64,000 nucleotides of DNA from an uncultured Pseudomonas sp. (GTDB taxonomy: Bacteria > Pseudomonadota > Gammaproteobacteria > Pseudomonadales > Pseudomonadaceae): positions 1 through 64,000 of the forward strand of contig NZ_CAMPHI010000024.1 in assembly GCF_946885955.1 (NCBI RefSeq), written 5' to 3'. The number at the start of each line of letters is the position of its first letter. Positions within the stretch are counted from its first letter, which is position 1. The notes under the pieces are model-generated. The model did no database searches, was not told the origin of the DNA, and was given only the letters and a program-made list of their open reading frames with translations. Shown here piece after piece: positions 40,466 to 56,662 of this stretch. A program made the position numbers and the translations under genes.

Positions 40466-40819
40466 AGCACCCCACATGGTTAAAAAGCACTCCCTTTATA
40501 GGCGCCTTAGCCGTTGCGGACGTCAAGAAATGCCACATCACCGAAGTAACGGAGTTCCTCGCCCGCGGGGTCAATCGGGCAGCCAAAATAGCCTTTCTCT
40601 TTGCGTCAGATGTTTCGCTTCGCGGTCGATCGCGACCTGATTGAGCACGCCCCCTACAGCAGCAAATCGTCAGACTGCTGAAGTGCCGCTGAAGGCGGCA
40701 GGGTCATCGTGCTAATTGGTGGCCATTGCCGTACGATTACGCACAAATATTACCTTCTCCAGCACGGAACCACTGGCAAGCCCCTTCCACGAGCGACTAT
40801 TGGGCGAAGCGAAGTACAA

Positions 40820-43800
40820 ATGATGCGTTCTATTGAAACAAGCGCCCTAACCGTGCAGGCAGCACAATCCCAACTAATCGAGGCCACCTTCGGCCTGGTG
40901 TCCTCCGCTCTGGTTCTGCTTGATGAGCAAGGGCGGATATTGAAAATCAATGGCGCTTTCGAAGAGTTGCTTGGCTACACCCTGCCGGAGCTGCTCGACA
41001 ACCTTTTTGTCGATCTGCTTCAGTGCGCTGAACGCGAGAACCTGCAGACCTTGTATGGTCAAGCTTTGCCAGCTTGCCTCACTGACCGGCCCCTTGAGCT
41101 GTGCTATGAACACAAGGATGGCAGCCTGTTGCATGGCCGCAGCAAGCTGGTAGCCGTCGGCCAGTTGTTACTGGGTGAAATCGTTCGGATCGAGCCCCCA
41201 AAGAGCCTGGATAAACAGCTCGAGCAGAATCAGTGGCTGCAACGAATCGTCGAAACAGCCCCAGGCATTATCGGTACCTTTCGCTTAACCAAAGAAGGCG
41301 AGGTTTCCATGCCATGGGCCTCGCCTGGCTACGAACAATACTATGGCGTGACCGTGGAGGAACTGAAGCGCGACGCTGGCATTCTATTCGAGCGCATCCA
41401 CCCAGAGGATGTCGCACGGGTGCGGGCGTCGATCGCCGAATCGGCACGTACGCTACAACCCTGGCAATGCGAATACCGGGTTCGTCATCCGCAAAAGGGC
41501 GAAATCTGGCTCGAGGGCCGCTCCAAGCCGACGCCTGAAGCCGACGGTTCAATACTCTGGTTCGGCTTCCTACACGATGTCAGCGAACGCAAGCGTATCG
41601 AACATGCTTTGCGGGAAAGCGAAGAACGCTTCCGCAAGGCTTTCGATTCCGCCGCTATCGGCATGGCCCTGCTGACCCTAGACGGTCGCTGGCTGCGAGC
41701 CAACCGCTATCTCTGCGAACTGCTCGGTTACAGCGAGGAGGAGCTACTGCAGACATCCAGCCAGGCGCTGACCCATCCGGACGATCTACCTGGTGAACTT
41801 ATCGGTAGCCGAGCCCTGGTAACCGGAGAAGTACCCTACTTGCATCTGGAAAAGCGCTACCGTAACAGCGACGGCCAATATCTACCGATGCGCCTGACCG
41901 TCAGCGCGGCGCATGCACATGACGGCACCCCCGCGTATCTGGTCGCCCAGATAGAAGACCTCAGCCGCCTCGTCGAGGCCGAAGAACGCCTCTCGCTGAT
42001 GGCCATAGCCCTCAGCCACGTACACGAGGCCGCCTACCTGATCGACCGCCAGGCACGCCTGTGCTATGTCAACGAAGAGGCCTGCCGCAGCCTGGGCTAC
42101 AGCCGTGAAGAATTGCTGAGCATGACCGTCGGCGAAATCGATCCCGACTGGACCAACGAGCAAATCCTGGCGGATTGGCACGACAACCCGGAACGCCCGC
42201 CGGAGATCATCGAAAGCCGCCACCAAACCAAGGACGGCCGTATCTTCCCGGTCGAACTCAGCGTCACCTACCTCGAACTCGATGGTCAGAGCTACAGCCT
42301 GGAACTGGCCCGGGATATCACCGAACGCAAACGCCTGCAGGCGGCGCAGCGGGAAAGCGAAAGACGCTACCGAGAGGTCTTCGATAACTCCGCAGACGGC
42401 CTCTATCTGGTGGAGGTGGCCGAAAATCAACAGTTCCGCTACATCGAGACCAATAGGGCCTTCGAGCGCGCGATAGGGATCCCTCGCCAGCAACTGATAG
42501 GGCGTTTTCTCGGCGAGGCCACCCCCGAAGCCGGCCGAATGGTTAAAAGTGCTTTTGCGGATTGCCTGGCCTGCGGCGAAATTATCGAAAGAGAACACAA
42601 ACTCGATTTACTGGTCGGGACTATTGCCGTCCACTCGATATTCATTCCCGTGCGTAACGAACAGGGGAGCATCTACCGTATCGTCGGCATCAGCCGCGAC
42701 ATCAGCGAACGCAAAGAGATGGAAAACCGTCTGCTGGCCAGCGAACAACAGTTCCGCGCCCTGGCGGAAAACTCGCTGAACCTGATCGTTCGCTATGACC
42801 TGAATTGCCAACGCACTTACGTCAACCCGGCGTTCGAACGGGAAACCGGTATTCCGGCCGCCAAGGCCCTGCACTGCCCACTCGAACGCTGTTGGCATGG
42901 GGGTGACCTTACGGCCGCCGAACACGAAACGTTGCTACGCCAGGTGATCGCCACCGGAGAACCTCTGGAAACCGTCCAGGAATGGTTATGCCCGCAGACA
43001 GGAGAAATGGTCATCCATGCCATTCAACTCATCGCCGAACGCGGTGTGAATGGTGAAGTGGTCAGCGTTCTGGCCAAGGGCTATGACATTACCGCGTTGA
43101 AACGTCATGAGCGCCTGGAGGAGGCCCGCCTGCGGATTTTCGAGCAACTGGCGCACGGGGCTCGGCTACCGGAAGTGTTAACGCTGGTAGCGCAATATGT
43201 CGAGCAAGTACGTCCTGATTTCCTGGCCAGCATCATGCTGGCGGATGAAGACTCCCGCTATCTGATCCCTGGCTCTGCCCCCAGTCTGCCGCTGGAGTAT
43301 ATCGAGGCACTCGGTCGTATCGAGATCGGTGAAGGCGTCGGTATCTGCGGCACCGCCGCCTGGCGCGGAACCACGGTGATCGCCGAAGACCTGCTCACCC
43401 ACCCGGATTGCACCACCTTCAGCGAACAGGCAAGACGGGCCGGGCTACGCGCCTGCTGGTCTGAACCGATGCTGGACTCCACCGGCAAGGTACTGGGTAC
43501 CTTCTGCATCTATCTGCACCAACCGGGGTTGCCGACCGATGACGACCTCAGGCTGGTTCACCAAGCCAGCCACCTGGCGGCCATCGCCATCGAGCGCAAA
43601 CGCGCCGAAGCACTGCTGCTCGAGAGCGAACAACGCTACCGGGATATCTTCGATAACTCCTTGGACCCCTTGTTTCTCCTGGAGGTGACCGAGGAGGGAC
43701 ACTTCCGCATCATCGAGGTAAACCCGGCGCTCGAGCGCGGCGCGAGCATGGAGCGCGCCGAACTGATCGGCAAGACCATTGAGGAAACGTTGCCCGCGGC

Positions 43801-45079
43801 CGCAGCAGCCAGCGCCATCGCCAAGTTTCAACACTGCGTGGACAGTTGGGCGCCGATCGATGAGGAAATACAACTCCACCTGCCCATCGGACAACGGATC
43901 TTCCACTCCACGCTGATTCCGGTATGCGGCGCTTCCGGACGCATCCAGAGGATCGTCGGGATCTTCCGCGACATCACCGAGCGCAAGCATGCGGAGCGCA
44001 TCCTGCACGTCCGCGAGCAGGAGTTTCGCGCGCTGGTGGAGAACAGCCCAGATGTCATCGCCCGCTTCGATCTGCAAGGTCGCTTCATCTACGCCAATCC
44101 GGTCACCCAGAGCATCCTTGGCAAAACCTTGGACAAACTGCTCGGCAAAGGCCCAGATGAAGTACTGCCCCACCTGAACGCAACTCACGCCTTTCGCAAA
44201 ACCCTCGCACAGATAGCACGAACCGGTGAAGCAGCTGAAGAAGAAGTCGTCATCAATGCCGTACCCGGCACCGATGCGGCCCGCTTCGAGGCCCGCTTGG
44301 TGCCCGAGCGCGACAGGGAGGGGCAGCTCGTCAGCATTCTCTCGATCGGCCGCGACATCAGCGCCATGCGCGCGGCGGAACGACGTCTGAAGGAATCCCA
44401 TGCACAACTGCGCTTGCTCTCCAGCCGCCGCGAAACCACAAAGGAAGAAGAACGCAAACACATGGCCCGGGAGGTTCACGACGAACTGGGTCAGCAACTC
44501 ACCGCGCTGCGCATGAGCATTTCCGTGCTACGCCTGCAATTCGGCAAAGACCAGCCGCTGCTGGTAGAACACATCCAAACGCTGATGACACGGATCGACG
44601 ATATCATCCAGGTAGTACGCAACGTAGCGACCAGCCTGCGCCCCGCCGCCCTTGATATGGGGCTGACTTCGGCACTCGAATGGCTGGTTGCCGAATTCTC
44701 CCGCAATACCGGCATTGCTTGCCGGTTGAAAGCGCCGGAGGCACGCCTGGAGCTCGATAACGAACGGGCCACTGCGGCCTTCCGGGTGATTCAGGAATCC
44801 TTGACCAACGTCGCTCGCCACGCGCACGCCAGCTACGTGGAGATCCACTTGAAATCCAGTCGCAATCAGGTATTGATCGAGGTTCGCGACGACGGCCGGG
44901 GCTTCGATCCGGAGCAGACGCGCCAAGGCACGCTGGGCATGCTCGGAATGCGTGAACGCGGCCATATGCTTGGAGGTGCAGTGACAATAGACAGTACCCC
45001 TGGCCAGGGTACTTGTGTTCAATTACAGATCCCTTTGCAGGCATCCCCGAGGCCCCACGACTCGACGAATGATCGCTGA
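40820..45079 (+). CDS. Soluble multi-PAS/GAF sensor histidine kinase (HisKA_3 type)
   Basis: A kinase of about 1419 residues with no membrane segment. By position it carries about eight PAS/PAC-like units (roughly 40880-43110 and 43620-44390). These are marked by recurring ESEERFRKAFDSAA, ESERRYREVFDNSADGLYL and QEFRALVENSPDVIARFDL motifs. A GAF domain (about 43125-43600) interrupts the series. The C-terminal transmitter is of the NarX/HisKA_3 class: H-box REVHDELGQQLTALR (His about residue 1220), N-box FRVIQESLTNVARHAHA and DDGRGFD. Such kinases pair with NarL-type regulators; a broken one overlaps the 3' end and an intact one lies at 54057-54698. The signal is unknown. The start is uncertain (frame open from 40709; no strong Shine-Dalgarno). 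Confidence 0.88.
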   Translation: MMRSIETSALTVQAAQSQLIEATFGLVSSALVLLDEQGRILKINGAFEELLGYTLPELLDNLFVDLLQCAERENLQTLYGQALPACLTDRPLELCYEHKDGSLLHGRSKLVAVGQLLLGEIVRIEPPKSLDKQLEQNQWLQRIVETAPGIIGTFRLTKEGEVSMPWASPGYEQYYGVTVEELKRDAGILFERIHPEDVARVRASIAESARTLQPWQCEYRVRHPQKGEIWLEGRSKPTPEADGSILWFGFLHDVSERKRIEHALRESEERFRKAFDSAAIGMALLTLDGRWLRANRYLCELLGYSEEELLQTSSQALTHPDDLPGELIGSRALVTGEVPYLHLEKRYRNSDGQYLPMRLTVSAAHAHDGTPAYLVAQIEDLSRLVEAEERLSLMAIALSHVHEAAYLIDRQARLCYVNEEACRSLGYSREELLSMTVGEIDPDWTNEQILADWHDNPERPPEIIESRHQTKDGRIFPVELSVTYLELDGQSYSLELARDITERKRLQAAQRESERRYREVFDNSADGLYLVEVAENQQFRYIETNRAFERAIGIPRQQLIGRFLGEATPEAGRMVKSAFADCLACGEIIEREHKLDLLVGTIAVHSIFIPVRNEQGSIYRIVGISRDISERKEMENRLLASEQQFRALAENSLNLIVRYDLNCQRTYVNPAFERETGIPAAKALHCPLERCWHGGDLTAAEHETLLRQVIATGEPLETVQEWLCPQTGEMVIHAIQLIAERGVNGEVVSVLAKGYDITALKRHERLEEARLRIFEQLAHGARLPEVLTLVAQYVEQVRPDFLASIMLADEDSRYLIPGSAPSLPLEYIEALGRIEIGEGVGICGTAAWRGTTVIAEDLLTHPDCTTFSEQARRAGLRACWSEPMLDSTGKVLGTFCIYLHQPGLPTDDDLRLVHQASHLAAIAIERKRAEALLLESEQRYRDIFDNSLDPLFLLEVTEEGHFRIIEVNPALERGASMERAELIGKTIEETLPAAAAASAIAKFQHCVDSWAPIDEEIQLHLPIGQRIFHSTLIPVCGASGRIQRIVGIFRDITERKHAERILHVREQEFRALVENSPDVIARFDLQGRFIYANPVTQSILGKTLDKLLGKGPDEVLPHLNATHAFRKTLAQIARTGEAAEEEVVINAVPGTDAARFEARLVPERDREGQLVSILSIGRDISAMRAAERRLKESHAQLRLLSSRRETTKEEERKHMAREVHDELGQQLTALRMSISVLRLQFGKDQPLLVEHIQTLMTRIDDIIQVVRNVATSLRPAALDMGLTSALEWLVAEFSRNTGIACRLKAPEARLELDNERATAAFRVIQESLTNVARHAHASYVEIHLKSSRNQVLIEVRDDGRGFDPEQTRQGTLGMLGMRERGHMLGGAVTIDSTPGQGTCVQLQIPLQASPRPHDSTNDR

Positions 45080-45472
45080 TGACCATGCCATCTTGCGCGA
45101 AGGGTTGAAACAGCTTTTGCCCTGGCTGGCGACCTGCACGTAGTTGGTAACGCGGAGCACGGCGCGGCGTTGCTCAAACGGCTGCGGCGCAACGATATGG
45201 ATCTGCGGCTAGACATGAGCATGCCGGGCATCAGTGGCGAGGATCTGCTGTCTCGCGTCCACAGCCGCGAGCCGCAACTGCCGATCCTGGTACCGAGCAT
45301 GCGCAATGACGTACCCATTGCCCAGCGTGCGCTCAAGGCCGATGCAACGGGCTATCTGACCAAGAACCACGATCCGGAAACTCTGCTGATGGCCTGCCGC
45401 CGAGTGGCTGCCGGCGGGCGCATCATCGATGCCCAGCTCGCCGAGCCGCTCCCACAAAACGCGGCAGATTAG
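45069..45472 (+). pseudogene. Frameshifted, truncated NarL-type response regulator
   Basis: The start ATG overlaps the end of the kinase. The first 20 codons read as a receiver start (IADDHAILREGLKQLL). The frame then stops near 45150, and the receiver continues in another frame (DLHVVGNAEHGAALLKRLRR, DMSMPGISGEDLLSRV, YLTKNHDPETLLMACRRVAA). The shift lies near 45115-45130. The LRLDMSMPG segment lacks one residue relative to the intact paralogue's LLLLDMNMPG, and no DNA-binding helix-turn-helix follows. It is a paralogous relic of the regulator at 54057-54698. Confidence 0.8.
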
Positions 45473-52269: not shown

Positions 52270-52607
52270 CGCAGCCACTCCTACCTGTCATCAAGAACGT
52301 GCACGGATCGGATATTCGGCGCCCTGGTAAGGGTCGAAACTCCAGATCGTCTGCTCTTTTCGCTCCCGGGCGGGATACACCGGGAGCTACGGTCTGTTTA
52401 ATATCGCTAGGGCAAAGAACTGCGACCGCACAACACATCGAAATGTGGCAAGCATGGGCTTTCCAGGCTTTACGGACGCAAGGCTAAGTCCGTATAGCGC
52501 TCTTCATAACCGAGCCAATTCCACTCGGCTTCGAATGCCGGCACTTCGAATTACAGAAGAGCTCGTTGCAAGCGAGAACAGAGAATGCATCCGCGCAAAC
52601 TCGACGA
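52270..52607 (-). promoter_or_regulatory. Long structured leader of the minor-pilin operon
   Basis: This is the 338 nt between the CCTAC element (minus strand) and fimU. It has no credible small gene. Two clear stems occur: TACGGAC/GTCCGTA (52471-52494) and GCTCCCGG/CCGGGAGC (52362-52387). Neither is followed by a U-run, so they are leader structures rather than terminators. No AlgR-like CCGTTTGTC box was noticed. Confidence 0.45.
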
Positions 52608-52661
52608 CCATCGGCGGAGGCTGATTCTTCAGTAGGGGGAAAAACAGGAATAGGTAGGGGG
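52608..52661 (-). promoter_or_regulatory. CCTAC composite element, copy E (toward fimU operon)
   Basis: On the minus strand CCCCCTAC boxes lie at 52654-52661 and 52632-52639 (22 nt apart). The spacer TGAAGAATCAGC and 5 further nt follow, then CCGATGG at 52608-52614, exactly 17 nt after the second CCTAC. It is oriented toward the pilin operon 338 nt away. Confidence 0.72.
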
Positions 52662-53317
52662 TGACTGACTATGACCGCAACCAATACAACCAACGATCCG
52701 CCGACCAGCAGGTCGGCACCACGCATCGACTTGCCCATGCAAGCACTTCAGGACGAATCAATAGGACCCGCGACAAACCCCTGCACGCGGCAATGCCCCG
52801 CAGCCAACTTGCCGAGGCGGCCCCACTGGGATTTGGATCGCCAGCAACAACCCGGAGCCTGTCCGAGAAGGGCGATTTTCAACGACATGCTAATGGCCTG
52901 CAGGACCAGTTGGTTGACTCAAGTGCGGATGGCCGAGGTTCTGAGACAAGGAGCCGCGACCAGTCGTAGCCAGCCATGGTCAGGAGCGGCAACGCAGCAT
53001 CAGGCTCAGGCGTCGAAATTGACTAACTGCACCAGCCGCACGCCAAACAAATGCGTCTGGCAGTCAAAAATATCTCATTGTTTTATATAAGAATTAAATC
53101 GGCACCAAGCTTGGTAGAAGCCAGCTTGCTGGCGATCCCGGCAAATCAAAAGCATCGCCGGGACGCCGGACCGCAGCAAGGACTTGCCCTCCCCCGGCCC
53201 CTACACCCTGTGCCGCGCGACGATGCCCCTTTGAAGCCGGAACTTGCCCTACAGGTAGTTTGTGCTCTTTTTACAAATGGCTGCGCCTGAAAACCGTTCG
53301 CCGGCCCGTATCGGCAA
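52662..53317. other. Spacer with no recognised gene
   Basis: Frames open here (for example 52671-53090) have irregular translations with no motif and I do not accept them. The stretch contains a REP palindrome (listed separately) and an AT-rich patch around 53075-53100. It separates oppositely oriented copies of the CCTAC element. Confidence 0.5.
53114..53138 (+). repeat. REP palindrome, second copy
   Basis: GTAGAAGCCAGCTTGCTGGC followed by GATCCC differs from the copy at 5291-5317 by one base in the core. It forms the same GCCAGC/GCTGGC hairpin. A CGCCGGGACGCCGG segment about 20 nt downstream may be the partner half of a REP pair. Confidence 0.72.
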
Positions 53318-53370
53318 CCCCCTACCCATCAAAGCAAACCCCCTACCGAAGAATCAGCCCTCACCGATGG
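53318..53370 (+). promoter_or_regulatory. CCTAC composite element, copy A (toward candidate sRNA)
   Basis: CCCCCTAC boxes lie at 53318-53325 and 53339-53346 (21 nt apart). CGAAGAATCAGC and 5 nt follow, then CCGATGG at 53364-53370, 17 nt after the second CCTAC. There is no open frame of note downstream; a strong terminator follows at 53528-53559. Confidence 0.72.
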
Positions 53371-53375
53371 TCGCT

Positions 53376-53559
53376 GAAGCTACTTGGTTGCATCCTTGCC
53401 CCCACTGTCTCGCCACACGATTGCCTATACACCCTGTAGGGCAATTGGCAGACATTTGCTGCTCCTGGAAAATAGGAGCCCGTGCTTCGCTGGCTAAGCG
53501 TCCCCCGCATAGTCAGGTCGATCATGGATCCCCGCTCCACTGCGGGGATAGCTTTTTTT
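53376..53559 (+). ncRNA. Candidate small RNA with three hairpins
   Basis: Between CCTAC element A and a strong intrinsic terminator lie about 185 nt with no coding frame. Stem 1 is ATTGCC/GGCAAT (53420-53445). Stem 2 is a perfect GCTCCT/AGGAGC with loop GGAAAAT (53461-53479). Stem 3 is the terminator. The loop GGA and other GGA triplets could bind RsmA, but this is speculative. The start (about 53376) is inferred from the CCGATG box and is not observed. Expression data would decide this. Confidence 0.5.
53528..53559 (+). terminator. Strong intrinsic terminator
   Basis: A perfect stem ATCCCCGC/GCGGGGAT (53528-53549) with a 6-nt loop is followed by AGC and seven T residues (53553-53559). No protein gene ends nearby on the plus strand, which is why a non-coding transcript is suspected. 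Confidence 0.85.
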
Positions 53560-53632
53560 GTTCGCCGTGCGGCGCTGCCATGCAGGGATATATTCATCGA
53601 ACGCCGCAAGCCTCGCGATCAACCCCCCAAGT

Positions 53633-53821
53633 ATCTACGACATAGCTGCGCAGACCGCCCCGGACTGCGAAGAGCACAGCTGCACGACCGAGGATATTGC
53701 GCGCAACACTCACGACATCCGCAAGCAGTCCAATGAAGCGGCACAAACCTCGGAACAGAACAACCAGGTCAGCGCGAACCTACCCGCGTCGGTCCATGAC
53801 CTCGCCCAGCTGGTCGACGGT
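53633..53821 (+). pseudogene. Remnant of an MCP signalling-domain C-terminus
   Basis: One frame reads IYDIAAQTAPDCEEHSCTTE, DIARNTHDIRKQSNEAAQTS and ASVHDLAQLVDG. This clearly matches the usual MCP tail of the form IA-x-QTA-x-ACEEQSATTEEIARNI...ASVHDLA-x-LVD. There is no MCP sequence upstream (the terminator at 53528 is just before it) and no start. It is a decayed tail fragment and evidence of an earlier, larger chemoreceptor gene here. Confidence 0.8.
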
Positions 53822-53919
53822 TCCGCATGTAACAAGCCGGCAGGCAGTACCCCATCAGAGCGATCCAACGCCCGACAGCGAAACTCGCCCTCACTGTGTC
53901 TCGCACACAAGGTCAGCCA

Positions 53920-53972
53920 ACCGCCTACCCCCAACCGGAAACCCCCTACCCAAAAAGCAGCGGCAGCCGATG
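53920..53972 (+). promoter_or_regulatory. CCTAC composite element, copy B (toward response regulator)
   Basis: CCGCCTAC is at 53920-53927 and CCCCCTAC at 53941-53948 (21 nt apart). CCAAAAAGCAGC and 5 nt follow, then CCGATGG at 53966-53972, 17 nt after the second CCTAC. It ends 85 nt before the response regulator ATG, a normal promoter-to-gene distance. Confidence 0.75.
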
Positions 53973-54056
53973 GTTTTATCCGCAACAGGCAAACACTCTA
54001 TTGAGCATCCTGCCCGCCATAGATATTGGAATCCCCTATCCAAGCAGCGAGGAACC

Positions 54057-54698
54057 ATGCTCAGAAAAATTCGTCTGCTGATTGTCGATGACCACGCCAT
54101 TATGCGTGGGGGATTGAAGGAACTGTTCGCCCTGACCAATGACCTGCTGGTAGTCGCCGAGGCCGAAAGCGGTGTAACGGCATTGGAACGACTACGGGAG
54201 GGCGATATCGACCTGCTGCTGCTCGACATGAATATGCCCGGTCTCAGCGGCGAGGATCTGATCGCACGCATCCGCACCCATCACCCAACGCAAAAAATAC
54301 TGATGCTGAGCATGCACAACGAACCGCAGATCGCCCAGCGCATGCTCAGGGCCGGCGCCAACGGCTACCTATGCAAAACCTGCACGCCAGAGACCCTGTT
54401 CGGAGCGATCCACCGCGTCGCTTCCGGCGCACGCGTCATTGATCCGCAGATTGCCGAAGACATCGCCCTCGAAGCCAGCAACCTGACGCAACAGAGCCAC
54501 CACGACAAACTCACCGAGCGCGAACGCCAGGTGCTACGCCTGTTCGCCCTTGGCACCAGCGTGAACGGAATCGCCGAGGCCCTAGCGATCAGTAGCAAGA
54601 CAGTCAGCACCCATAAGGCGCGACTGATGGAAAAAATGGGTTTCTCCAGCAATGCCGATATCGTCCGCTACGCCGTGAGCCAAAACCTTATAGAGTGA
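54057..54698 (+). CDS. NarL/FixJ-family response regulator
   Basis: A 213-residue regulator. The receiver domain has VDDHAIMRGG (acidic pair D11-D12), phospho-acceptor D57 in LLLLDMNMPGLSGED, and the conserved lysine in YLCKT. The C-terminal LuxR-type helix-turn-helix (about 150-213) has LTERERQVLRLFALG and SSKTVSTHKARLMEKMGF. All key residues are present. The ATG at 54057 follows GAGGAA; the upstream open frame is not coding. A CCTAC element lies 85 nt upstream and another just after the stop. The large HisKA_3 kinase at 40820-45079 is the likely partner by class, since the adjacent regulator there is broken; this is an inference. Confidence 0.92.
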   Translation: MLRKIRLLIVDDHAIMRGGLKELFALTNDLLVVAEAESGVTALERLREGDIDLLLLDMNMPGLSGEDLIARIRTHHPTQKILMLSMHNEPQIAQRMLRAGANGYLCKTCTPETLFGAIHRVASGARVIDPQIAEDIALEASNLTQQSHHDKLTERERQVLRLFALGTSVNGIAEALAISSKTVSTHKARLMEKMGFSSNADIVRYAVSQNLIE

Positions 54699-54806
54699 CG
54701 TTATAAGCCCCTCTATATCGCAACTGCTCACAGACCCAGACCTGCCACCCCATTTACCAAGTGCGTCAACAGCCCCTCCGAGCCGCCACACAGCACCAGT
54801 AGGGGG

Positions 54807-54859
54807 CCGCCTACCACAGCCACCACTATGCCTACTCAAAAACCAGCATAGGCCGATGC
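54807..54859 (+). promoter_or_regulatory. CCTAC composite element, copy C (toward MCP-like gene)
   Basis: CCGCCTAC is at 54807-54814 and ATGCCTAC at 54828-54835 (21 nt apart). TCAAAAACCAGC and 5 nt follow, then CCGATGC at 54853-54859, 17 nt after the second CCTAC. The first box is also half of an inverted repeat GTAGG-N6-CCTAC (54799-54814). It ends 113 nt before the MCP-like gene. Confidence 0.72.
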
Positions 54860-54972
54860 CCGTCCAGCCACAGGGCCCGCATCATGCGCCAATGCCGGCA
54901 TGCCGCCGTCAACTTTTCAACGCAGACAAACCGGCGCTGCGCTGCAGTCAAAGCCGACACCGGAGAACGAGA

Positions 54973-56040
54973 TTGAGAGAAACCACTTACGCCTCCAAAC
55001 AATCCCCCATGGGCGCATCCTCGATCATCCTGGCCATGGCCGCGCTCGGTGCCGCCTGCGTGCTGGCCACCGGGGAGCCGCAACTCCTGCCCGACAGGCT
55101 CGCCATGCTGATCCTGACATTGGGCGCGCTTGCGGCTTTCTATTACCACTGGCACAACCGCAGCCTGCACGGCGTGAAGCCACAAGCAACCAGAAATGGG
55201 GGCATCGAAGGCAGCTGTGGTTGCGCACAGGCATCGACATACCGCGATGCGTTACCAGTCTGGGCCGGACAAGTCGAGGCTGCCCGCGACCTTACCGAAG
55301 AGGCCATCACCTCCCTGACCAGCCATTTCAGCAGAATGTCCCAGCGGGTTGAGCGCGCCGCCGACGCAGCCCGGAACGGTACTCCGATGAATGGCAGGTT
55401 GGCCTTGCTGCTCGGTGACAGCCGACAGGAACTGGAAGCAACCGTCGTCTCGCTGGGCGCGGCCTTGGCCACCAAAGAAGCGCTGCAACAAGAGGTAATG
55501 GAACTGTCCGGTCTCACCGAACAGCTACGAGCGATGGCCCAGGATCTCGCGAGCATTGCCATACAGACCAATCAGGTAGCGTTCAACGCCGCACTGGCCG
55601 ACCAAGGGCGCAACGGTATGGCGGTGGTAGTCGCGCATGAAATTGGCAAGCTCTGCAGCCTGACCAGCGAAACCGGCAGACGTATCGGCGAAACCGTGGA
55701 CGCGGTGAATACTGCCATCACCAACACCCTGGCTGCCTCCCGCCAATATGCCGAGCAGGATGGGGCCACGGTGAACGACTCCAGGCAGGTCATCGAACAC
55801 GTCATCAAGCGTTTTCGCGGCGCAACCAACACACTTCTCGAGTCCTCCCGCGAGCTGCGCGAGGAAAGCCATGCCGTCAGCAAGGAAATCACTCAGGTGC
55901 TGGTCAGCCTGGAGTTCCAGGAGCGCGTCACCCAAGTGCTCGGCCTGGTCCGCAACGATATGGAAAAACTGCACCGCAATCTTGCCCAGACCGCTCGACA
56001 CGCCCCGGCGCCCGGCTCACGCCCGCGCCGAGCGGCATAA
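54973..56040 (+). CDS. Membrane-anchored MCP-like chemotaxis protein
   Basis: A protein of about 355 residues. Two short hydrophobic segments near the N-terminus (ASSIILAMAALGAACVLA and LAMLILTLGALAAFYYHW) form a hairpin anchor without a sizeable periplasmic sensor. A helical signalling domain follows with a diverged MCP tip (IAIQTNQVAFNAALADQG, VVVAHEIGKLCSLTSETGRR). It ends in VSLEFQERVTQVLGLVRNDM, typical of a class of cytoplasmic-sensing MCPs. A TTG at 54973 preceded by GGAG is proposed as the start because the paralogue at 56363 shares TTG, GGAG and the following residues; ATG 55009 is the alternative. The diverged tip may bind CheA/CheW poorly. Confidence 0.75.
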   Translation: MRETTYASKQSPMGASSIILAMAALGAACVLATGEPQLLPDRLAMLILTLGALAAFYYHWHNRSLHGVKPQATRNGGIEGSCGCAQASTYRDALPVWAGQVEAARDLTEEAITSLTSHFSRMSQRVERAADAARNGTPMNGRLALLLGDSRQELEATVVSLGAALATKEALQQEVMELSGLTEQLRAMAQDLASIAIQTNQVAFNAALADQGRNGMAVVVAHEIGKLCSLTSETGRRIGETVDAVNTAITNTLAASRQYAEQDGATVNDSRQVIEHVIKRFRGATNTLLESSRELREESHAVSKEITQVLVSLEFQERVTQVLGLVRNDMEKLHRNLAQTARHAPAPGSRPRRAA

Positions 56041-56188
56041 GCGCAATGCCCTGAGCGTTGCCCCCACGCTCGGAGCCGTCCAACGGGCCGGCGCGGGGAT
56101 TACGCTACCGCGCGTAGCCAAGAGCTTCGCGGCGGCTCATCGACCAGCCACCGCCGCGACCCAAGCCCGCGCGAGAAAGGGTAGGAAA

Positions 56189-56241
56189 CCCCCTACTACC
56201 ACCACCTGCACGCCTACCTCAAAACCAGCATCGACCGATGG
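56189..56241 (+). promoter_or_regulatory. CCTAC composite element, copy D (toward MCP-like remnant)
   Basis: CCCCCTAC is at 56189-56196 and ACGCCTAC at 56210-56217 (21 nt apart). CTCAAAACCAGC and 5 nt follow, then CCGATGG at 56235-56241, 17 nt after the second CCTAC. As in copy C, the first CCTAC is half of GTAGG-N6-CCTAC. It ends 121 nt before the downstream TTG start. The rest of the 320-nt gap shows nothing else. Confidence 0.72.
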
Positions 56242-56362
56242 CCGGCTATCCCGCATGGTCTGCATCATTTGCGCCCACTGGCATTCTGACACCTTCCCTT
56301 CGATGCGGAACGAATCGGTGCATGGCTTAGAACATCGCCGGCCAATGGATGGAGAATCGGCA

Positions 56363-56662
56363 TTGAGCGAAACAACCACCCCCTCTGAACCCCCTCCAAG
56401 CAGAGCCCCCTGGGCATTCCTGGCCCTCGCGGGGCTGGGCGCCGTCTGCGTGCTGGCAACGGAAGGGGCGAACCTTCTGCCCATGGGGCTGGCCGCCACC
56501 GCCGAGGAAATGAGCGGCCAGGCCGAGCAACTACAGCAGCTGATGGGCTTCTTCACCTTGGCTGCGCACTCCATAGGCGAGCGCGATAAGGCGGCCGTTG
56601 CCCGACAGGATAGCGCAGCCCCTTGGCTCGGCCGTACCGGCTGGTTTCGTGCACGTCCATGA
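56363..56662 (+). pseudogene. Internally deleted MCP-like gene
   Basis: The 99-residue frame starts like its upstream paralogue (SETTTPSEPPPSRAPW, then the membrane segment LALAGLGAVCVLATEGANLL). It then jumps directly to an MCP tail, ATAEEMSGQAEQLQQLMGFF. Everything between (second membrane helix and signalling domain) is missing, consistent with a large in-frame deletion. A TTG at 56363 with GGAGA upstream parallels the start proposed for the paralogue; an in-frame ATG lies at 56345. It may still be expressed as a small membrane peptide from element D. Confidence 0.65.

Follow-up and report, generated by a model that had tools for sequence, protein, structure and literature searches.

Phosphorylated BvgA binds the Pfha promoter as three head-to-head dimers, which lie 22 bp apart on one helix face. 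The nearest dimer abuts the -35 region, and the high-affinity inverted heptad far upstream reads TAAGAAATTTCCTA (PMC7250471, in the part of the paper available). The GacA box is given as TGTAAG-N6-CTTACA in the accessible text of PMC4950607. For CrbR/ErdR, the available part of PMC5715377 describes an ACTU motif of the TACTACCATCGTCGAAT type, located from -52 to -36 in acs. In this study, we analyzed a composite element that occurs five times in a 64 kb stretch of Pseudomonas DNA (contig NZ_CAMPHI010000024.1, positions 1 to 64,000), hereafter the window. We consider it likely that the element is an activator-dependent promoter of the sigma-70 type, which would be read by a NarL-family response regulator (RR) at three phased sites. 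The preliminary description of this DNA had proposed a promoter-type element of a regulon. This proposal is supported by the sites, their phasing, a fixed -10-like hexamer, the co-occurrence with the RR, and the recurrence before related genes, namely those for FimT-like/PilV proteins, methyl-accepting chemotaxis protein (MCP)-like proteins, CheV, HD and EAL proteins and BcsE.

The window was searched with the pattern CCTAC-N16/17-CCTAC-N17-CCGATG. The pattern was found in exactly five places (elements A to E, Table 1) and nowhere else in the window, and 300 first-order shuffles did not produce it once. The five copies with two CCTAC boxes and CCGATG 17 nt further on, as first reported, all lie where they were placed. 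The spacing of the CCTAC boxes is 21 nt in B-E and 22 nt in A. The elements are longer than first stated: a left half-site lies 5' of the first CCTA, and a -10-like hexamer lies 21-22 nt past CCGATG. The left half-site is clear in D and E and weaker in A, B and C. TAGG-N6-CCTA occurs twice in the window (D and E), with 0.23 occurrences expected, and D and E are the two copies in which GTAGG-N6-CCTAC inverted repeats had been noticed. Downstream of CCGATG, D and E have some sequence in common, as judged by eye. The pair may have arisen by duplication.

To describe the anatomy of the element, 45 elements were aligned, 5 from the window and 40 from relatives. They were compared with a set of 13 chance matches, which consisted of L126 and 12 three-mismatch matches. 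Three matches (G003:C11:281049, G015:C1:4166880 and G015:C1:4699781) were left out of both sets, and the 45 do not include variants one base shorter in either gap (the first matches of L048 and L054; L027; L031). Site 1 is TAGG-N6-CCTA, with TAGG or TAAG in 42 of the 45, a share that is partly due to selection. Box 2, CCTAC or a near form, is located 21 nt after box 1 in 36 elements and 22 nt after it in 9, limits that the patterns imposed. The right halves of the five window copies are 21/22 bp and then 22 bp apart. The left half of site 3 was found at the exact 10-nt offset before CCGA in 43/45 elements and in 0/13 chance matches, although it is absent from the search pattern. Its letters are TAGG or one letter off in 23 elements, NCAG in 20, and neither in 2.

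Two classes can be told apart. Class I elements, the window type, have CCTAC followed by AAAAN-CAGC-N5-CCGATG. Class II elements, from other Pseudomonas, have TAGG-N6-CCGA as site 3, and their site 1 is typically TAGGGATTTTCCTA. Because class II has TAGG-N6-CCGA, CCGAT was read as a half-site. Read in this way, the 17-nt gap is part of a 22-bp start-to-start period, which corresponds to two helix turns. From the spacing, we infer a dimer at site 2 as well.

Matches to TATAAT peak 21-22 nt after CCGATG in the 45 elements, with a best-of-two mean of 3.47 of 6 letters and at most 2.62 at non-overlapping offsets. The hexamer NA[TC]NNT stands at offset 21 or 22 in 38/45 elements, including 5/5 window copies, and in at most 7/45 at non-overlapping offsets. 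It is also present at 21 or 22 in seven diverged elements outside the set (L082, L085-L090), which lie beside the regulator gene. This hexamer is the likely -10. If the start lies about 7 nt after this -10, the site centers would be at about -85.5, -64.5 and -42.5, which would place site 3 near the -35 region. No consensus -35 was found in the element. A standard sigma-70 scan of 52-57 kb gave one weak match (53445-53473), at no element, which is expected since these would be promoters without a -35.

Relatives were sought with the downstream half only (CCTACNNNNNAANCAGCNNNNNCCGATG) across contigs of 84,980 species. The scan returned 21 stretches, of which 5 have an exact CCTAC 21-22 nt upstream, a box absent from the pattern. 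These five are from a Pseudogulbenkiania metagenome-assembled genome (MAG; L004), P. batumici (L005), P. citri (L013 and L019) and Pseudomonas sp. RGM2987 (L018). A sixth stretch, from Pseudomonas sp. PIC25 (L023), has CTTACC at the box position; the remaining 15 have neither and are mostly from other phyla. The contigs of P. citri and RGM2987 encode proteins that are among the 120 best homologues of the window regulator (P0042, P0096, P0111).

Close homologues of the regulator (E <= 4.6e-63, 56-71% identity) were found in 27 of 298 Pseudomonas genomes, termed RR-positive. After a gap, a second group of RRs (E >= 2.1e-55, at most 49% identity) follows in most of the 298. The exact two-box pattern occurred in 24/298 genomes (9/27 RR-positive, 15/271 RR-negative), and only the matches in the nine RR-positive genomes look alike. 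The strict form, which is the pattern together with the left half-site, was present in 9/27 RR-positive and 0/271 RR-negative genomes (Fisher 1e-10). This argues for the proposed tie between the element and the NarL-type regulator encoded among the copies. GTAGG (at least four of five letters) exactly 11 nt before box 1, which is absent from the pattern, accompanied 20/20 matches in RR-positive genomes and 0/21 others. These 21 comprise 15 from RR-negative genomes and 6 from G001 relatives outside the RR search.

A 20-letter pattern with up to three mismatches gave 37 matches in 30 RR-positive genomes (the 27 plus G001, G004 and G005), and 26 matches, spread over 18 genomes, had at most two mismatches. 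In 30 of the 271 RR-negative genomes, the same pattern gave 10 matches, all with three mismatches (Fisher 1.9e-7 on genomes). A search with 22-nt spacing, confined to the 30 RR-positive genomes, gave 18 matches, 8 with at most two mismatches; one (L126) was judged to be chance. The regulon had been called 'local', which is not strictly the case: relatives carry elements at several loci per genome. Beyond G001 itself, the G001 relatives (61 genomes including G001), in which the regulator was not searched, gave only matches without further features. Two single-box matches in viral contigs were without the upstream box and were taken as chance.

The regulator gene was first placed between copies B and C; it is in fact located between C and D. 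Among 25 families shown of 108 matched, no NCBIfam equivalog (NarL, GacA/UvrY, ErdR, EvgA, FimZ and others) was above its cut-off for the window RR; the best reached 158.1 bits against 242. The recognition helix KTVSTHKxRLMEKM is kept in the aligned family members, with the exception of one clade. This clade of six regulators (L085-L090) has I-N for [AGST]-R in the helix. Beside its genes, box 2 is missing and the first right half is CCTAG (five) or degraded (one); CAG[CT]-N5-C[CT]GATG and the -10 are kept. It is suggestive that helix and element co-vary in this clade. However, some class II elements also have CCTAG together with an ordinary helix.

In relatives, a sensor kinase is encoded directly before the regulator. 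The window kinase, which is rich in PAS domains, matches the kinase before the regulator in P. citri (L013) with 60% identity across 496 C-terminal alignment columns, and the one beside the regulator in PIC25 with 57% across 472. The RR that adjoins the window kinase is only a remnant, and the intact family member lies 9 kb away at 54057. We infer that this kinase phosphorylates the regulator at 54057.

The following mechanism is proposed. The phosphorylated NarL-family RR, most likely the product of 54057-54698 or else a paralogue of the same family, would bind the element as head-to-head dimers. The three sites, 21-22 bp (two turns) apart, would be occupied on one DNA face. Site 1 would be the strongest and site 2 a CCTAC half-site. 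Site 3 (TAGG or NCAG, N6, CCGA) would cover about -42.5, beside RNA polymerase, and the hexamer 21-22 nt after CCGATG would serve as the -10 of a promoter without a consensus -35. Binding, dimers at site 2, phosphorylation by the PAS kinase, activation rather than repression, and the transcription starts are predicted parts of this mechanism.

Several points weigh against this mechanism. The 45 elements were chosen with TAGG and the 21-/22-nt spacing in the pattern; the set includes seven three-mismatch members picked by eye and omits the two-mismatch match L126. A left half of box 2 was looked for in the 45 elements and none was visible. CCGATG is conserved beyond the need of a weak site and may serve an additional function at the -35 region. 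Among the window copies, site 1 is perfect only in D and E; A has TCAG, B has TCGG and C has an out-of-register TCAG. The pattern NA[TC]NNT was shaped on the data, although the unshaped TATAAT count peaks at the same place. Several genomes have two or more RRs of the family, any of which may be the one that acts. Nine of the 27 RR-positive genomes are without an accepted element; seven have a diverged form beside the RR, and G009 and G271 have none.

The raw totals also count against it. The exact pattern gave 32 matches in 24/298 genomes, and a reversed-pattern control gave 24 in 22. With the 20-letter pattern, the reversed control gave 27 (RR-positive) and 40 (RR-negative) matches against 37 and 10, a control that is unsplit by mismatch number. 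The raw totals show no enrichment; therefore the case rests on mismatch classes, left half-sites and RR-positive genomes.

Another regulator might read the element, such as an RR of the second group or GacA. The second-group RR we take to be AgtR-like, a name based on its PotA-like ABC-transporter neighbor (by eye), and GacA is a NarL-family regulator too. Three second-group loci (L091-L093) have TAGG-N6-CCTA beside the gene and the helix core KT[VI]STHKxRLM, and the GacA box, in the available part of its description, has the same N6 spacing (PMC4950607). However, 30 genomes with only the second-group RR have no element at up to two mismatches. The GacA halves are TGTAAG/CTTACA, and the window RR scored 154 bits where the GacA family requires 280. 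In the 45 elements, the GacA-type halves TAAG and CTTAC were found in 4 and 3, respectively, never with the other half, and TAGG and CCTAC were commonest. We regard this explanation as unlikely.

The regulator might instead repress through the element, or both repress and activate depending on the set of sites. The weak site 1 of A, B and C would fit this. However, a site 3 near -42.5 in a promoter that lacks a consensus -35 matches how activator-dependent promoters are built, those of BvgA among them, as far as the available part of PMC7250471 describes them, and we find a repressing role decidedly improbable.

The preliminary description had read the 17-nt gap, present in all five window copies, as that of a -35/-10 pair, with CCGATG as the core of a sigma-28 -10 and the upstream CCTAC as an activator site. 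A sigma-28 (FliA) promoter has a TAAA -35 and a GCCGATAA -10, and CCGAT does resemble the latter. However, CCGATG is without the A2 and T6 of a -10, the place of TAAA holds box-2 letters of which none fit in the 45 elements, and CCGATA occurs in 8/45, always followed by G. CCGAT is better placed as the right half of the third site, 22 bp after the second CCTAC. It has its own N6 left half in all but two elements, and the conserved hexamer with A2 and T6 sits 21-22 nt further downstream. On this half-site periodicity and the downstream -10, both the -35/-10 pairing and the sigma-28 assignment were abandoned; an unusual or sigma-28 promoter of this kind is very unlikely. A mobile or duplicated repeat without a regulatory role deserves almost no credence: there are several copies per genome, D and E are more alike than the others and the L141 copy precedes a transposase-like frame (by eye), but the conserved letters are confined to the phased half-sites and the -10, the copies stand in sense orientation before functionally related genes in different genomes, and the strict form occurs only in RR-positive genomes.

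Table 1. Elements, genes and the putative small RNA (sRNA) in the window; HTH, helix-turn-helix
Feature	Coordinates	Strand	Remarks
Element A	52582..52668, core 52609-52658	-	site 1 TCAG-N6-CCTA; box 2 CCTAC 22 nt on; site 3 TCAG-N6-CCGA; putative -10 CATTCT 52582-52587
Element B	53311..53396, core 53321-53369	+	site 1 TCGG-N6-CCTA; box 2 CCTAC; site 3 TCAG-N6-CCGA; putative -10 CATCCT 53391-53396
Element C	53914..53999, core 53924-53972	+	left half of site 1 weak (TCAG shifted by one base); boxes 1 and 2 CCTAC; site 3 GCAG-N6-CCGA; putative -10 CACTCT 53994-53999
Element D	54800..54885, core 54810-54858	+	site 1 TAGG-N6-CCTA; box 2 CCTAC; site 3 CCAG-N6-CCGA; putative -10 CATCAT 54880-54885
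Element E	56182..56268, core 56192-56240	+	site 1 TAGG-N6-CCTA; box 2 CCTAC; site 3 CCAG-N6-CCGA; putative -10 CATCAT 56263-56268
Putative sRNA, about 157 nt	53403..53559	+	from element B to intrinsic terminator (stem 53528-53549, then T-run); start predicted from -10
NarL-family RR, proposed element binder	54057..54698	+	receiver PF00072 E 2.5e-29; LuxR-type HTH PF00196 E 6.5e-19
MCP-like membrane gene behind element D	54973..56040	+	MCPsignal match below Pfam cut-off; homologues behind element in other genomes
99-codon open frame behind element E	56363..56662	+	first 44 residues 52% like gene behind D; middle signalling part absent
PAS-rich sensor kinase, NarX/UhpB-type kinase end, candidate partner	40709..45079	+	homologue encoded directly before regulator in relatives
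RR remnant, same family	45081..45472	+	behind kinase; pieces in two frames; without HTH part

In the window, element A reads toward genes for fimT-like, pilV, pilW-like, pilX-like, pilY1-like and pilE-like pilins. The first of these open reading frames (ORFs) starts at 52278, and the window pilV is above the NCBIfam cut-off. Element C stands before the RR gene, which suggests autoregulation. The minor pilins, a putative sRNA and the regulator itself had been named as targets, and A, B and C are placed accordingly. Two membrane MCP-like genes had been named as well; this holds for the gene behind D, whereas behind E there is only the 99-codon frame without the signalling part.

The sRNA stretch (163 nt) folds at -70.2 kcal/mol (z -4.58), and 0 of 200 shuffles were as stable. 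A hairpin in it exposes GGA at the loop (GCUCCUGGAAAAUAGGAGC). Sequence relatives were absent at E<0.1 (best 0.15) in 12 of the 30 RR-positive genomes; because sequence conservation was lacking in these 12, the sRNA is a candidate only. An Rfam search of 51-58 kb returned only two matches (E 3 and 4.5), both outside the sRNA stretch and below the gathering scores. The reading as an RNA element was rejected, as no Rfam match lay above the gathering score.

Neighborhoods in relatives contain genes of the same kinds. In PIC25 (L123), the regulator is followed by an element, a CRP-type gene (scoring above the NCBIfam cut-off for CRP), a second element, and the FimT-like and PilV (TIGR02523 E 5.2e-29) genes; the pilin target is the same kind as that of window element A. 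At L123:1501-2762, the gene for the CRP-type global regulator comes directly after the RR and behind an element, an arrangement that may link the two regulons. The order in P. citri is kinase, regulator, element, MCP-like, CheY, STAS and CheA, where names other than MCP-like were given by eye. Its second locus (L019), also read by eye, has cellulose genes, regulator, element, MCP-like in two frames, CheY and STAS. Among 17 regulator loci with a co-directional MCP-like gene behind the RR, 11 have an element of the 45 in between and 6 have a diverged form.

Eighteen downstream genes, picked to cover different kinds and several of them cut by the locus end, were given to Pfam. They comprised seven MCP/MCP-like, two CheW-like, one CheV, one EAL, one PAS-GGDEF-EAL and one HD/DUF3391 protein, together with two BcsE, one FimT/GspH-like, one CRP and one TonB receptor. 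Intervening frames were seen in L141 (transposase-like) and in L065 (G015), where a short MCP-like piece lies behind the element. By eye, translations downstream of elements further revealed a kinase gene (L031) and a catalase-like one (L030). In the class II genomes L044, L048, L052 and L054, two elements lie about 0.7-1.4 kb apart, one of them before an HD-type phosphodiesterase-like gene. The second element of L048 precedes an MCP-like gene (by eye). Elsewhere in the window, inspection of the ORF list by eye suggests a large type VI secretion cluster with serine/threonine kinases at positions 638-36879.

Overall, we lean toward the view that this is an undescribed two-component regulon with a BvgA-like promoter code, whose RR occurs in 27/298 sampled Pseudomonas genomes and in the Pseudogulbenkiania-labelled MAG. 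It would co-activate type IV pilus minor pilins, dedicated chemosensory arrays, cyclic di-GMP (c-di-GMP) enzymes and cellulose synthesis (BcsE), with a CRP-type regulator added in one species and, in another, a terminator-bound sRNA. Such a regulon would be a master switch of surface life, in which membership varies by species and the grammar is fixed. The comparative sequence points to an unnamed NarL-type regulon that covers pili, chemosensing, c-di-GMP and cellulose and has a conserved promoter code whose architecture is unusually legible. In the open-licence literature, we found no described regulon that matches the element, which is weak evidence of novelty. If the view is correct, one sequence pattern would predict which genes an unnamed two-component system controls in Pseudomonas and where their transcription starts, and this system would link pilus assembly, chemosensing, c-di-GMP and cellulose. 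The helically phased multi-dimer activation worked out for BvgA would then be readable from comparative sequence. Single-site changes between species (class I vs class II, loss of site 2) would make its rules cheaply testable with reporters.

Among the known systems, the AgtR-like regulator is a paralogous RR (45-49% identity in the loci examined) that shares the helix core and, at L091-L093, the inverted repeat beside its gene. It differs in being present in most Pseudomonas sampled, and its three loci L091-L093 lack box 2 and the CCGATG array. At L091-L093, TAGG-N6-CCTA lies between the AgtR-like gene and the PotA-like ABC transporter gene. This position suggests an AgtR site. CrbR/ErdR is likewise a LuxR-type RR of Pseudomonas with an imperfect inverted repeat by an RpoD promoter, and the scan in the available part of PMC5715377 lists CheV and an MCP gene. 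However, the ACTU letters differ from those of the element (by eye), and the window RR reached 74 of the 390 bits of the ErdR cut-off. The GacA box is also an N6 inverted repeat from Pseudomonas, but its half-site letters are different, and the accessible description contains no 22-bp tandem array (PMC4950607).

BvgA at Pfha differs, judging from the available part of its account, in several respects: in the present element the left half is more commonly TAGG, only one half of site 2 is visible, site 3 has a fixed CCGATG, and the genes and hosts are others. At Pfha, again within the accessible text (PMC7250471), a two-component RR has its strongest site, an inverted heptad TAAG-N6-CCTA, furthest upstream and its dimer centers 22 bp apart, and the proposed reading of the element would share these features. 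The nearest dimer at Pfha abuts the -35 region; site 3 of the element would lie at about -42.5 if the putative -10 and a 7-nt distance to the start are right. The BvgA-type architecture also has the alpha-CTD on another face. The geometry would be the same as that of BvgA at Pfha and the word of site 1 nearly the same, a likeness of working that is claimed from the DNA sites and implies no membership.

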